A DNA stretch of 64,000 nt, from contig NZ_CP023865.1 in NCBI RefSeq assembly GCF_003711105.1, positions 3,807,001-3,871,000 on the forward strand. The letters are read 5' to 3'. Shown one piece after another: positions 51,044 through 56,321 of this stretch (position 1 is the stretch's first letter; the number at the start of each line of letters is the position of its first letter). Below the pieces are notes generated by a model. It had not been told where the DNA came from and searched no databases. It was given only the letters and a program-made list of their open reading frames with translations. The translations under genes and the position numbers were made by a program. Source of the stretch: Actinoplanes teichomyceticus ATCC 31121 (GTDB lineage Bacteria; Actinomycetota; Actinomycetes; Mycobacteriales; Micromonosporaceae).

Positions 51044-51505
51044 TCACAGGCGGATGGCGCTGGTGACCACCCGGCGGCCGTCGGCGGTCTCACAGGTCAG
51101 GGTGAACAGGCCGGCCGGTTGCGGGGCGATGCGGAAACAGCCGTCGGCGTCGACCGGGACCACGACGGTCGTCCGGTCCTCGTAGCGCAGGGTCAGCGTG
51201 GCCGGTTCGGGCGGCACGAGCTGGCCGAGCAGGGCGGCCGGTGAGACGCCCAGCTCGATGAGGAGTCCGGGCGCCTCGAAGCTCAACGTCCGCAGCTCGG
51301 CCTCCTCCTCCCGCATACCCGCGAGGGCTGGCGCTGCGGCGGCGGAGTCGTGCACGAGAGCGGCGAGATCGGCGTCGACGGTCCGCCAGGTGTAGACGGC
51401 GCGGGCGGCGTCGAGCACGTCGGGGGGAGTCGGGTCCGGGCTCGCCCCCGCCTCGGTCAGCGCTCGCAGCAGCCGGTCATCATCCTGCATCCAGTCGTTG
51501 CTCAT
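51044..51505 (-). CDS. Small partner protein of the ECF sigma / S8 operon
   Basis: A 153-residue soluble protein. A helical N-terminal part (LLRALTEAGASPDPTPPDVLDAARA) resembles the cytoplasmic region of anti-sigma-like proteins, and the C-terminal part (TLTLRYEDRTTVVVPVDADGCF to the end) looks like a small beta-sandwich. It lies 51 bases downstream of the sigma gene on the same strand and is the last gene of the S8-sigma-partner operon. It lacks a membrane helix and a zinc HxxxCxxC motif, so it is not a standard anti-sigma factor. Its role is unknown, but the position suggests control of the sigma or protease. Confidence 0.65.
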   Translation of the reverse strand: MSNDWMQDDDRLLRALTEAGASPDPTPPDVLDAARAVYTWRTVDADLAALVHDSAAAAPALAGMREEEAELRTLSFEAPGLLIELGVSPAALLGQLVPPEPATLTLRYEDRTTVVVPVDADGCFRIAPQPAGLFTLTCETADGRRVVTSAIRL

Positions 51506-51556
51506 GACGGTGGTCGTCTCCCTTCAAGGCGCGTCGGCCTTGATCGTGGCCTGCGG

Positions 51557-52135
51557 TCAGTCGGCGTCGGTGAGCAGCGCCCGCAGGGCCGGACTGCGGC
51601 GTAACCGTTCCAGGCAGCGGGCCCGGTTCGGCCCGATCGCGCCGCACGGCATGCCGAGCCGTGCGCTGATGTCGGCGTACGGGATGGGCTGCGGCCGCAT
51701 CAGCAGGCCGAGCAGCTGCCTGCAGTGCTCCGGGAGCTCGGCGAACGCGGCCCGCAGGGCGGCATCGCGCTCGTGCCGGAGCAGGTCGCCGTCGACCGCG
51801 TCGCCGCCGGCGCCGTCGTCCGGCGCCCGGTCCAGATGTACGGCCGGATCGTCCGGGCGTTCGCGCTGCTGCGCGCGGTACTGCCGGGTGCACTCCCGGG
51901 TCGCCGTGGTCATCAACCAGCCGGGCAGGGCCTGCGGCTCGCGGAGCCGATCGAGGTTCTCCACCAGCCGCAGCCACACCGTCTGGCTCACGTCGGCGGC
52001 GTCCGCGTCGTTCAGGCGCCAACGGCGGCAGGTCGCGTGGACCAGCGGACCGTACCGCGACACCAGGGTGTTCCACGCTTCGGTGTCGCCGGCCGCCGCG
52101 GCGGCGACGAGCGTGGCGAGATCACCTTCGGGCAT
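51557..52135 (-). CDS. ECF-like RNA polymerase sigma factor
   Basis: A 192-residue sigma-70 family protein with regions 2 and 4 only. Region 2: LVHATCRRWRLNDADAADVSQTVWLRL; region 4: LPEHCRQLLGLLMRPQPIPYADISARLG followed by GAIGPNRARCLERL. GAGGAG sits 6 bases before the ATG. It follows the S8 peptidase gene by about 100 bases and precedes the 153-residue partner. Such sigma genes recur beside CHAT and S8 protease genes in actinomycetes, and probably drive this locus. Confidence 0.92.
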   Translation of the reverse strand: MPEGDLATLVAAAAAGDTEAWNTLVSRYGPLVHATCRRWRLNDADAADVSQTVWLRLVENLDRLREPQALPGWLMTTATRECTRQYRAQQRERPDDPAVHLDRAPDDGAGGDAVDGDLLRHERDAALRAAFAELPEHCRQLLGLLMRPQPIPYADISARLGMPCGAIGPNRARCLERLRRSPALRALLTDAD

Positions 52136-52236
52136 CGTCAACTCCTCATCGGGGCGGTGCGGGCGGGGCAGCGGCCGTGGCCTCCCGCCGGACCGGGACA
52201 ACGTCCTGGTGGCGGCGGAAGGTCCATCGGCGGTGG

Positions 52237-53508
52237 TCACGCGGACCACTTCGGGATCAGGGCGGAGGTGGTCCCGGCCCGGGCGTCCTGCAGCAGCTGG
52301 CGCAGCGCGGCCGGCGGGTCCACCTCGCCGCGCCGGATCCGTGCGGCGAGCAGGCCGGAGACCCACGCCGCGGCGAACGAGGTGCCGCTCCAGGACGCCG
52401 CGCCGTCGTACCGGCCGGTGCTGCCGGGCGTGGCCGGGTCGACGACCGTGACCGCGCCGTCGAAGTAGTTGCTCACCACGTTGACGCCGGGGGCCAGCAC
52501 GTTCACCCAGGGCGCGTCCGGGCTGAACGACGCGGGCGTGCCCTGCGGGGTCAGCGCGCCGACCGCCACCACCTCGTCGTAGGCCGCCGGCCACAGCGGG
52601 CGGCGGCATCGCGGCCCCGGCTCGCCGTGATTGCCGGCCGCGGCCACCACGACCGTGCGTGGCCCGATCAGGCGCAGCGCGGCGGTCATCGCCAGGGCCG
52701 GCTGGTCGTCACCGGTGAAGAACCCGGCCGAGACGTTGACCACGTCGGCCCCCCGCCGGGCGAGCGCGACCAGGTCGTTGGCCAGTCGCCACGAGGTGCT
52801 GCGGGCCGCGTCGTCCAGGGTGGGATGGATGGTCACCGCGGCGCCCGGCGCGTTGCGCAGCACGATGCCGGTGACGAAGGTGGCGTGCCCGGCGGTGAAC
52901 GGCAGCCCACCCGGGCCGGGGGCGGGCAGCAGGGCACCGGGCGGGGCGAGATACGCCCCGGCGAGCGGGCCGTGGTCCCAGAGCCGGGTGTCGCAGACCG
53001 CGACGGTCGCGCCGGTTCCGCGTTCCCCGGCGGGGCGCGGCAGACCGTTGCGTACGCTGCGGTGGCTGCCCGGGGCGCCCTCGACCTCCGGCAGCACGTG
53101 TGCGTCGGGAGCGAAGACCCGGCCCTCCCAGCCGCCGGCCAGGACGTCCGCCTCGGTCGCCGGAGCCGGCAGCCGGCGACCCCCGCCGCTGATCACGTGA
53201 GCGCCGCCCACGGTCTCCACCTCACGGTTCTTGCCCAGCAGGGGGGTCCAGCCGTCGTATTCGCGGCGGAAGTAGGCGCGCAGGTCGGCGAGGAGCGCGT
53301 CGGTCGGTGAGCCGGAGCCGTCGGCCGCGCTGCCGCCGTCGCGCGCCGGCCCGGTCAGGTGCAGCAGGGCGAGGCCCAGCGCCGGGCTGCGCTGCGGCTC
53401 GCCGGCCGGGTGCAGGCCGAGCGTGCCGAGACGGTCCAGGATCAGGCCCAGGTGCGGCAGAGCCACGATCAGTTCGTTGACCCGGTGCGTCGCATTCGTC
53501 GTGCCCAT
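52237..53508 (-). CDS. S8 subtilisin-like serine peptidase, cytoplasmic type
   Basis: A 423-residue peptidase with the subtilase triad: Asp173 (VAVCDTRLWDHG), His208 (FTAGHATFVTGI) and Ser377 (WSGTSFAAAWVSG), plus the oxyanion Asn293 (AAAGNHGE). There is no signal peptide; about 165 N-terminal residues, helical at the start (VNELIVALPHLGLILDRL), precede the catalytic part and may be a regulatory or recruitment domain. It is divergent from the TPR-CHAT gene and heads the operon with the sigma factor. Likely activated by, or activating, the CHAT protein; that link is inference. Confidence 0.9.
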   Translation of the reverse strand: MGTTNATHRVNELIVALPHLGLILDRLGTLGLHPAGEPQRSPALGLALLHLTGPARDGGSAADGSGSPTDALLADLRAYFRREYDGWTPLLGKNREVETVGGAHVISGGGRRLPAPATEADVLAGGWEGRVFAPDAHVLPEVEGAPGSHRSVRNGLPRPAGERGTGATVAVCDTRLWDHGPLAGAYLAPPGALLPAPGPGGLPFTAGHATFVTGIVLRNAPGAAVTIHPTLDDAARSTSWRLANDLVALARRGADVVNVSAGFFTGDDQPALAMTAALRLIGPRTVVVAAAGNHGEPGPRCRRPLWPAAYDEVVAVGALTPQGTPASFSPDAPWVNVLAPGVNVVSNYFDGAVTVVDPATPGSTGRYDGAASWSGTSFAAAWVSGLLAARIRRGEVDPPAALRQLLQDARAGTTSALIPKWSA

Positions 53509-53576
53509 GGTTCTCCTCGTGCGGGTGTGAGCTTCGGGCGTTCACCCGGCTCGTCAAGAGGACCAACGAGTGGCCG

Positions 53577-53589
53577 ATTTGATACAAAT
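53577..53589. promoter_or_regulatory. AT-rich palindrome between S8 and CHAT genes
   Basis: ATTTG-ATA-CAAAT is a perfect inverted repeat in the 176-base divergent promoter region, strikingly AT-rich for this genome. It contains TGATACA, also found twice as an inverted pair at 56707-56744. Confidence 0.55.
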
Positions 53590-53684
53590 GTCGCTGACAA
53601 CTGTTCCCGCCGCGGTGCTCCCGTGGGGGCCGACCCGGGAAAACCCGCGCCGGGGCAGGGAGGTGCGCCGGAGGGAGAGGACGC

Positions 53685-56321
53685 ATGGCGCGGGACGCCG
53701 CCGCTCGCGTGCTCTGCGACGAGGCACTGCGGCTCGTCGACGCGCAGCCGCAGCGCGCCTGGAGCCTCGCCGCCCAGGCCCGTGACCTCGCCGGGCGGGC
53801 CCACGATCCGGAGTCCGCCGCGGTCGCCGAGCGCGCCCGGGGACTGGCCGCCCTGCACCTGGCCGACCTGGACACCGCGCTGCGGTGCGAGCGCGGCGCC
53901 GTCCGGCTCGCCCGCCGCGCCGGCAATCCCACCCTCGCCGCCGAGGCCCGGATGAGCCTGGCGTACGTGCTCAGCTGCCGCGGCCAACCCCGCCGGGCGC
54001 TCGGCGTGATCGACCGCGCCCGTGCCGACCTGAACGGCGTCCAGCGCCTGCGGGCCACCGCCCAGCGCGGCGCCATCCTGCAGCAGCTCGGCTGCCTCGG
54101 CGAGGCGCTGGAGACGTACCGGGAAGTGCTGCCCCGGCTGCGCGCCTGCGGTGACCCGGTCTGGACCTGGCGGGTCCTCAACAACCGGGGTGTGCTGTTC
54201 GTCTACCGCTACCGGTTCGCCGAGGCGCTCGCCGACCTGCACGAGGCCGAACGGCTCAGCGAGGCCGAGGACCGGCGCCTGCTCGCCGCGCACGTGCAGG
54301 AGAACCTGGGCTTCGCGCACAGCCGGCAGGGTGAGGTCCCGGCCGCCCTGCGGTACTTCGAGGAGGCCGAACGGCGGTACCGGGCGCTCGGCGTGAGCGT
54401 CAGCTCGCTGCTGCTGGACCGTGCCGAGCTGCTGCTCGCCGTGCGGCTGGCCCGGGAGGCCCGGGAGGCGGCCGAGCAGGCGGTCGCCGAGCTGACCCGG
54501 GCCCGCAGCGGGTTCAAGCTGCCCGAGGGCGTGCTGATGGTGGCCGCCGCCGCGCTGCTCGCCGGGGACTGCACGGCGGCGCTGCCCGCGGCGCGCCAGG
54601 CGGCCGCCGCCTTCGCCCGTCAGCACCGCGACGACTGGAGCGCCGTGGCCCGGCTGATGGCGCTGCGCTGTCGCCTGGGACTCGGGCAGCGCGTCGCCGT
54701 ACCGGAGCTGGTTCGCGTCGCCGACGCGCTGCAGGCGGCCGGCTGGCGGATGCCCGCGCTGGACGCCCGGGTCACCGCGGCCCGGCTCACGCTGGAACGC
54801 GGCCGCCCCGCCGAGGCCCAGGCGCTGCTGGCCGCGGCCGGTGCGGCCCGCCGCACGGACCCGGCCGAGCTGCGCATCCGCGCCTGCCAGTGTGCCGCCC
54901 TGCGCCACCTGAGCGCGGGCCGCCGCCGGGCGGCGGCCGCCACCATCTCCGCGGGTCTGCGCATCGCCGAGGAGTACCGGGCCACCCTGGGCGCGGACGA
55001 CCTGCTCGCGTACTGCTCCGGACATCGCACCGAACTCGTCCACATGGGTCTGCGGATGGCGATCGAGGCGCGGTCGGCACGTCGCGTCCTGCGCTGGGCC
55101 GAGCGTGGCCGGGCCAGCCACCTGCTCCTCGCCCGGGCCCGCCCACCCGGCGACCCGGTGCTGGCCGCGGCGCTCAGCGAGGTCCGCGGTGTCGTCGCCG
55201 AGCTGGCGGCGGCGCGGCGGGCCGGGGAGTCGGTCGCCCACCTGGAACGGCGACAGGCGGCGCTGGAGAACCGGATCCGCGACCACCTGCGGCGGCGCGA
55301 CGGCGACTACGCCGGCACCGCCGCGCCCGCCTCGCCCGAACAGCTCACGGCGGTGCTCGACGGTGCGGCGGTGCTCGAGTACGTGGAGAGCGACGGCGCA
55401 CTGTTCGCCGTGCTCCTCGCGGACGGCCGGACCGTGCTGCGCCCGCTCGGACCGGCCGCCGAGATCGCCGGATCGCTGGAGCACCTGCCGTTCGCGATGC
55501 GCCGCGCGGCCGCCGGCAACGACCGCAGCGCCGAGGCGGCCGACCGGCTGCTGGCCAGCCTGGGACGCCGGCTCGACGAATTCCTCGTCGGGCCGGTGCG
55601 CGACGCCCTCGGCGACCGGCCGCTGGTGGTGGTCCCGACCGGGGCGCTCCAGTCGATGCCGTGGGGGCTGCTGCCCTCGTGCGCCGGGCGTTCGGTCACG
55701 GTCTCGCCCTCGGCCACCTCCTGGTATCAGGCCGCCCGCCGGCCACGCCGGTACGGCACGACGCTCGCGGTGGCCGGGCCCGACCTGCCGGGCTCGGCGG
55801 CCGAGATCGCGGCGCTGCACCGGCTGTATCCCGCGGCACAGACGCTGACCGGCGCCTCGGCCACGGCCGGCGCGGTGCTCGCCGCCCTGCCGTACGCGAG
55901 CATCGCCCACGTCGCCGCGCACGGCAATTTCCGGCGGGACAACCCGCTGTTCTCCTCGCTGCGGCTCGCCGACGGACCGCTCACCGTCCACGACCTGCAA
56001 ACCCTGCCCGACGTGCCGGAACTGGTGATCCTCGCCGCCTGCGACAGCGGCCTGTCGCTGGTCTGTCCGGGCGACGAGTTGCTCGGCTTCTCCGCCGCCC
56101 TGCTGACCATGGGCACCCGGTCGCTGGTCGCGGCCATGCTGCCGGTGCCGGACGAGGTGGCCACGGTGCTGATGACCGCGATGCACCACCGGCTCGCGGC
56201 CGGGGCCGCACCGGCGTCGGCGCTGGCCGAGGCGGGCCGCGATCTGGCCCGCAGCGGCGGCCCCGCCGAGCGGATGACCGCCGCCGGGTTCGTCTGTCTC
56301 GGCGCCGGACTCGGCGCCTGA
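53685..56321 (+). CDS. TPR-CHAT (caspase-like) protease
   Basis: An 878-residue protein. The first 430 or so residues are TPR-like helical repeats (for example ALRCERGAVRLARRAGNP and YRYRFAEALADLHEAERL), then a helical linker, and a CHAT domain at about 570-875. The caspase-type dyad is His746 (HVAAHGNF) and Cys786 (VILAACDSG). CHAT proteases, the clan that includes separase-like and Craspase enzymes, cut protein partners on activation. GGAGGGAG precedes the ATG. Divergent from the S8-sigma operon, with which it most likely forms one system. Confidence 0.93.
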   Translation: MARDAAARVLCDEALRLVDAQPQRAWSLAAQARDLAGRAHDPESAAVAERARGLAALHLADLDTALRCERGAVRLARRAGNPTLAAEARMSLAYVLSCRGQPRRALGVIDRARADLNGVQRLRATAQRGAILQQLGCLGEALETYREVLPRLRACGDPVWTWRVLNNRGVLFVYRYRFAEALADLHEAERLSEAEDRRLLAAHVQENLGFAHSRQGEVPAALRYFEEAERRYRALGVSVSSLLLDRAELLLAVRLAREAREAAEQAVAELTRARSGFKLPEGVLMVAAAALLAGDCTAALPAARQAAAAFARQHRDDWSAVARLMALRCRLGLGQRVAVPELVRVADALQAAGWRMPALDARVTAARLTLERGRPAEAQALLAAAGAARRTDPAELRIRACQCAALRHLSAGRRRAAAATISAGLRIAEEYRATLGADDLLAYCSGHRTELVHMGLRMAIEARSARRVLRWAERGRASHLLLARARPPGDPVLAAALSEVRGVVAELAAARRAGESVAHLERRQAALENRIRDHLRRRDGDYAGTAAPASPEQLTAVLDGAAVLEYVESDGALFAVLLADGRTVLRPLGPAAEIAGSLEHLPFAMRRAAAGNDRSAEAADRLLASLGRRLDEFLVGPVRDALGDRPLVVVPTGALQSMPWGLLPSCAGRSVTVSPSATSWYQAARRPRRYGTTLAVAGPDLPGSAAEIAALHRLYPAAQTLTGASATAGAVLAALPYASIAHVAAHGNFRRDNPLFSSLRLADGPLTVHDLQTLPDVPELVILAACDSGLSLVCPGDELLGFSAALLTMGTRSLVAAMLPVPDEVATVLMTAMHHRLAAGAAPASALAEAGRDLARSGGPAERMTAAGFVCLGAGLGA

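Follow-up and report, generated by a model that had tools for sequence, protein, structure and literature searches.

A tentative anti-sigma factor with a putatively cleavable linker in an ECF54-type protease module of Actinoplanes teichomyceticus

What does a small protein without a recognised family do when it is encoded beside an extracytoplasmic function (ECF) sigma factor and two proteases? The question is raised by a stretch of 64,000 nucleotides from Actinoplanes teichomyceticus ATCC 31121 (contig NZ_CP023865.1, positions 3,807,001 to 3,871,000; hereafter the window), in which such a protein, here called the partner, neighbours an ECF sigma factor, an S8 subtilase and a TPR-CHAT protease (Table 1). 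Our preferred answer, held tentatively, is that this protein acts as a soluble anti-sigma factor and is cleaved at an arginine of its linker, most likely by the CHAT protease, in a module of the ECF54 type. The N-terminal helices of the partner would hold the sigma factor, its C-terminal immunoglobulin (Ig)-like domain would serve recognition or stability, and a flexible linker with the conserved arginine would join the two halves. The TPR part of the CHAT protein would sense a cytoplasmic signal, upon which a protease, most likely CHAT, would cut the linker at the arginine and inactivate the anti-sigma factor. The freed sigma factor would then transcribe its targets, probably including those of the S8/CHAT intergenic region, and the S8 protease would act as a second step, either clearing fragments or, by way of its N-terminal extension, becoming activated by CHAT. 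Binding, cleavage, the choice of protease, the signal and autoregulation are what we infer here.

Conservation of the four genes and their fit to ECF54

Homologues of the partner numbered 28 in the protein database and 432 by profile (7999 candidates scored, the best 120 listed), and those that are close and named come from Actinoplanes and Amorphoplanes. A scan of genome contigs kept 78 partner loci from 92 pattern matches, with actinobacterial names throughout save for one record named 'bacterium' (L041). Using profiles built from these loci, a sigma factor was found in 78/78, the S8 protease in 77/78 and the CHAT protease in 76/78; of the two loci lacking CHAT one is a 6.5-kb contig (L056) and the other a contig end (L098), which also lacks S8. 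Sigma factor and partner share a strand in 76 of the 78 loci. In 66 of those 76 the open reading frames (ORFs) chosen by script overlap or leave a gap of no more than 10 bases, the gap in the window being 51 bases. By a strict script, CHAT and S8 stand head to head within 600 bp in 63 of the 76 loci that hold both; the remaining 13 comprise L041 and L043, with both on one strand, L050 and L078, with another layout, and nine outside the length limit. The window's gene order recurs in Micromonospora, Lentzea, Saccharothrix and Microbispora and in a further genus of the same class (six loci: L140, L143-L146 and L148 of g28). The order is S8 (-), CHAT (+), sigma (+), partner (+) in Kribbella and sigma (+), partner (+), S8 (-), CHAT (+) in Nocardioides. 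The four genes stay together despite this shuffling, far beyond chance, and the neighbourhood picked out by an earlier reading made from the letters alone (the sequence-only reading) is indeed a conserved one. A conserved fifth gene was also considered and rejected, the top neighbour family (an ABC-type protein by eye) being found in only 7 of 24 groups.

A separately drawn sample of 296 Actinomycetota genomes, in which each search scored only the best first-look candidates, held the partner profile in 32 genomes, CHAT in 62 and the sigma profile (E <=1e-38) in 41. CHAT occurs in 39/41 sigma genomes versus 23/255 others, an odds ratio of 197 with a Fisher p of 5e-30 that is too small since the genomes are related.

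The gene set has been described before. According to excerpts of PMC8999054, where the ECF54 group is cited to Huang 2015 and Casas-Pastor 2021 and a table gives SFT86700.1 of Geodermatophilus amargosae as model protein, genes for carboxypeptidase, subtilase and CHAT proteins are conserved beside ECF54 sigma factors. The module of the window resembles this group in its ECF sigma factor, its mainly actinobacterial distribution and its carboxypeptidase, subtilase and CHAT genes, and Geodermatophilus is found among our loci as well (L050). By gene context the window module fits ECF54, provided that the 'carboxypeptidase' is the CarboxypepD_reg-like partner. It probably is, as the Ig-like C-terminus of the partner resembles the regulatory domain of carboxypeptidases and not the enzyme itself. 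A Pfam search with the partner returned no family, CarboxypepD_reg alone appearing at E 0.1; the UniRef names of some homologues (P0061, P0068, P0092), partly cut, start 'Carboxypeptidase regulatory-like domain', and the C-termini of the more distant relatives described below match CarboxypepD_reg (E 2.4e-5 in L188).

The partner and its linker

Zinc anti-sigma factors carry the motif HxxxCxxC. The partner has two cysteines (123 and 138), far apart, and one histidine (52), and inspection of its sequence found neither a zinc motif nor a membrane helix, as the sequence-only reading had also held; with both absent, a zinc or membrane anti-sigma identity was rejected. An AlphaFold2 model built on 77 sequences has helices at residues 4-56 with low to medium confidence, disorder at 57-71 with a predicted local distance difference test score (pLDDT) below 50 at 58-61 and 63-66, and a confident Ig-like beta-sandwich at 72-153. 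The best 50 of 1001 Foldseek matches were all to beta domains, Ig/FN3-like or of other kinds, with E >=0.02 and none of them significant.

The disordered linker holds Arg65, invariant in a 29-row partner alignment and nearly invariant in a 77-row one. To extend the comparison we used alignment columns over 202 unique partners, from which L097 and the truncated L100 were excluded, a first regular expression having matched only 72/205. In 202/202 the linker holds an arginine whose next residue is A, G, S, D, T or E; this arginine occupies an identical column in 96 and is shifted by a few residues in the others, and lysine occurs only twice in the linkers of all 202. Arginine makes up 9.4 per cent of linker residues versus 7.1 per cent outside. 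By chance 31 per cent of linkers would be expected to have none, so that an arginine in any single sequence is unremarkable; the weight of this residue comes from its constancy over distant lineages and from an invariant GxR in a divergent one among them. It is on these alignments that we regard Arg65 as a candidate cleavage site.

That divergent lineage includes Rubrobacter (P0140 of R. indicoceani and P0144 of R. radiotolerans). Its gene sits between sigma factor and CHAT (seen in L161, L163, L164 and L187-L189) and encodes proteins of ~200-220 aa with N-termini like LADYAEGRLPPDEAR; GxR is invariant in all 18 rows of its alignment. Profile alignment by hhalign joined it to the window partner through to the C-terminal end (probability 97.8, E 1.2e-12), with the linker arginine in register. 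The N-terminus of P0153, the best of four tested, weakly matched the anti-sigma profiles NF052375 (E 2.8e-5, residues 13-77) and PRK13920 (E 3.5e-4, residues 12-101).

A number of results weigh against this reading of the partner. The alignment with the Rubrobacter type begins only at residue 47, and the anti-sigma matches reach 24 bits, far under the curated cut-off of 100; the other three proteins tested gave E 0.012 (P0144), 0.059 and 0.33 (P0149) and no match (P0157, from an Anaerolineaceae metagenome-assembled genome). Neither Pfam nor NCBIfam picks out an anti-sigma domain in the N-terminus of the window partner itself, and the best 50 of its 1001 fold matches include no anti-sigma factor and no Csx30. 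A loose xR motif is present in 98/122 non-redundant partners, compared with 38 on average and 51 at most in 300 shuffles. It lies outside the linker as well in 82/122, with several hits not at the linker; we therefore relied on the alignments and not on this motif test. In an AlphaFold2 run with sigma factor and partner as one chain, a stand-in for a complex prediction, the predicted TM-score (pTM) was 0.43 with no confident interface, and the partner helices were hardly more confident than alone; with its alignment rows mostly unpaired, this model neither supports nor refutes an interface. The genome sample adds to this side: of its 47 sigma hits, only 29 have a partner at a distance of up to 2 kb and 30 a CHAT gene at up to 10 kb, and among 34 sampled partner stretches 4 lack an adjacent sigma factor and 12 contain no CHAT. 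On balance the idea of the sequence-only reading that the partner is a sigma inhibitor removable by a protease probably stands, by homology to anti-sigma-like proteins and a linker that resembles a protease site; the sigma interface that was to go with it did not emerge from prediction.

It is here that the published view of ECF54 has to be weighed. In the excerpts of PMC8999054, control of ECF54 is thought to be proteolytic without an anti-sigma factor, the proteases degrading the sigma factor itself and so keeping the system off, whereas we read the fourth gene as a soluble anti-sigma factor with a cleavable linker. The published idea was put forward from the same gene context, and eight sigma relatives have neither partner nor S8 nearby. 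Against it, the partner is near the sigma hits counted above about as often as CHAT is, though it diverges faster, and its relatives include proteins whose N-termini are anti-sigma-like; we consider degradation of the sigma factor itself quite unlikely. The eight close relatives (L167-L174) were chosen for having neither partner nor CHAT close by in the survey, and CHAT is at most a weak match in their stretches (score 53 in L170). They caution against too tight a link between sigma factor and module.

Two proteases and two half-modules

Pfam matched the CHAT protein to CHAT (E 3.9e-38) and TPR_12 (E 2.2e-9) and the subtilase to Peptidase_S8 (E 6.8e-21). Among relatives, and with the window included, the CHAT histidine is kept in 73/76 rows (two gaps and one X) and its cysteine in 74/76 (two gaps), and each residue of the S8 triad in 76/77, the odd rows being masked or cut; the catalytic residues that had been read as intact from the single sequences are thus confirmed by alignment. 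PADLOC gave weak resemblance only, of the CHAT protein to BovA (E 6.6e-4) and of S8 to a subtilase model (E 1.4e-10).

A precedent for CHAT acting on an inhibitor of a sigma factor exists in the Type III-E CASP system, where, according to excerpts of PMC10028731, the TPR-CHAT protease Csx29, the inhibitor Csx30 and the ECF factor CASP-sigma work together. Like the window it has a TPR-CHAT protease with a His/Cys dyad and an ECF sigma factor, and its inhibitor has a cleaved loop; the S8 protease is extra in the window. Membership in this CRISPR system was rejected: the window's CHAT protein (P0004) scored 22.2 bits with the Csx29 family against a cut-off of 300, and PF03787 (RAMP/Cas7-11) had no match in the whole genome, the same search being positive in 4/14 control genomes. 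We think it possible, with slightly less assurance than for the partner as anti-sigma factor, that ECF54 systems parallel the Csx29-Csx30-CASP-sigma relay but work without CRISPR: CHAT would cut the small soluble anti-sigma factor, so far taken for a carboxypeptidase, after the linker arginine and free the sigma factor, and an S8 or trypsin-like zymogen would form a second arm that may lie elsewhere together with CHAT. Two further published systems are similar in part. In CalpL-CalpT-CalpS a protease also cuts an anti-sigma factor and releases the sigma factor, but excerpts of PMC12751052 describe a Lon-SAVED protease, a cA4 signal and type III CRISPR; EACC2-caspase neighbourhoods of multicellular prokaryotes hold an ECF sigma factor and a TPR protein, but in the excerpts of PMC8195603 the latter is a DUF1822 protein and the domains are variable. 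The main text of PMC8195603 contains none of the words subtilisin, subtilase and anti-sigma, and 'sigma factor' is absent from that of PMC7159879. Excerpts of PMC7730460 and PMC11205660 contributed nothing to the question.

Would CHAT be expected to cut after arginine? We considered a separase-like S1 pocket for a P1 arginine, which we take to correspond, aligned by eye, to CHAT position 820. This position is proline in 61/76 rows and the pocket was rejected; the linker arginine therefore does not by itself point to CHAT.

Hand counts of the 34 sampled partner stretches (L131-L164, some of which end at contig ends) gave an adjacent sigma factor in 30, CHAT in 22 and S8 in 21, and where CHAT is missing it is often found elsewhere in the genome beside S8. 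Among 14 CHAT stretches away from sigma (L175-L186, L195 and L196), S8 adjoins CHAT in nine; in two of these nine, L175 and L177, a sigma factor is present as well, farther off. Such CHAT-S8 pairs apart from sigma and partner indicate two half-modules, sigma-partner and CHAT-protease. CHAT hits lie near sigma or partner in 33/95 cases, so CHAT has other contexts too. Where modules are split, the partner goes with the sigma factor (L138, L139, L141, L142, L150, L151) and not with CHAT-S8, which tells against a partner that inhibits or adapts one of the proteases through its Ig-like domain instead of binding sigma. This idea draws on the Ig-like beta-sandwich being the best predicted part of the partner, and it is further at odds with four partners that have neither sigma nor CHAT-S8 (L132, L133, L149, L156); we regard it as very improbable. 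Two of these four come from one genome (G087), which has three sigma and three partner hits and also a complete module, L134. In Geodermatophilus chilensis (L050) two partner copies lie on opposite sides of CHAT.

The half-modules also bear on a further possibility, that CHAT activates an S8 zymogen, that the endpoint is proteolysis of cell proteins and that sigma factor and partner mainly control expression of the pair. The nine CHAT-S8 pairings kept apart from sigma-partner are in keeping with it, as are the N-terminal extensions of S8, one of which (L188) matches a Fervidolysin-type prodomain. Short tandem repeats between this extension and the catalytic domain, found in 11/121 S8 ORFs (two further hits there are masked bases), are also in keeping with it, and so is a trypsin-like protein that fills the S8 slot in L147 and L185. 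Together these suggest a zymogen-like serine protease as second arm of the module. Activation of S8 as the endpoint leaves the conserved linker arginine of the partner and the genome-level link of sigma and CHAT unexplained, and we judge it unlikely, and prefer the partner as a cleavable anti-sigma factor.

The repeats (L083, L152, L153, L155, L157, L158, L160, L162, L190, L191 and L193) have at least three copies of 6-12 aa and are lineage-specific, e.g., ANPAYQ, GGTPYP, TSGGPF and GGVPFW; the window's S8 has no such tandem repeats. The trypsin-like proteins (L147:10835-12427, minus strand; L185:12053-13612, plus strand) lie beside CHAT, carry the motifs SNWH and GDSG and have YQ-containing repeats with 7 and 6 YQ respectively; in Pfam the L147 protein matched NAL1_N only (E 0.0015). 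A strongly hydrophobic stretch is lacking in the N-terminus of the S8 of the window (highest mean over 17 residues 1.38), which agrees with the absence of a signal peptide in the sequence-only reading. The corresponding stretch is hydrophobic in Rubrobacter-type S8 (2.3-2.8; L161, L164, L187-L189, L194) and intermediate in several from Micromonospora (1.7-2.1).

To the account of ECF54 in PMC8999054, the present analysis adds a candidate for the anti-sigma factor, in which one residue can be put to the test, two half-modules, and a second protease that bears repeats or is replaced by a trypsin-like one. In the excerpts of PMC8999054 the control of ECF54 is a proposal only, and a candidate anti-sigma factor makes the guess of sigma degradation assayable. 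If our reading is true, sigma factors are under caspase-like control outside CRISPR systems too, and a natural substrate is suggested for actinobacterial TPR-CHAT proteases.

Locus layout and the intergenic region

All four ORFs of the sequence-only reading are present where it had placed them, in a genome of 8.29 Mb in one contig with a single CHAT match. The sigma ORF starts with ATG at 52135 and ends at 51557. Its product matched Sigma70_r2 (E 3.2e-15) in Pfam and Sigma70_r4_2 at only 0.065; TIGR02937 of NCBIfam (E 4.3e-20) covers region 4, weak in Pfam.

Table 1. Features of the module, in positions of the window
Feature	Position	Strand	Remarks
Partner gene	51044..51505	-	153 aa; candidate soluble anti-sigma factor
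Partner linker codons, residues 57-71 incl. R65	51293..51337	-	low pLDDT and conserved Arg
Partner Arg65 codon (LAGMR)	51311..51313	-	proposed cleavage point
ECF sigma factor gene	51557..52135	-	192 aa; regions 2 and 4
S8 subtilase gene	52237..53508	-	423 aa; D173/H208/S377; N-terminal extension ~150 aa
Intergenic region S8/CHAT, head to head	53509..53684	.	176 bp
GTATCA element upstream of S8	53580..53585	-	shared by near relatives; weak candidate for part of a promoter or operator
TPR-CHAT protease gene	53685..56321	+	878 aa; His746/Cys786

Of the divergent shared promoter that had been proposed, the head-to-head starts, 176 bp apart, are confirmed; a consensus scan of the intergenic region found no sigma-70-type site. 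An expectation-maximization (EM) search for a common ECF promoter picked up, as judged by eye, coding sequence at the S8 start and was discarded. A promoter common to S8 and CHAT is possible. In k-mer counts over 43 representative S8/CHAT intergenic regions, GTATCA occurs in 8 versus 1.43 expected, and other, lineage-bound k-mers scored above it, with AAGAAT in 12/43 versus 0.93.

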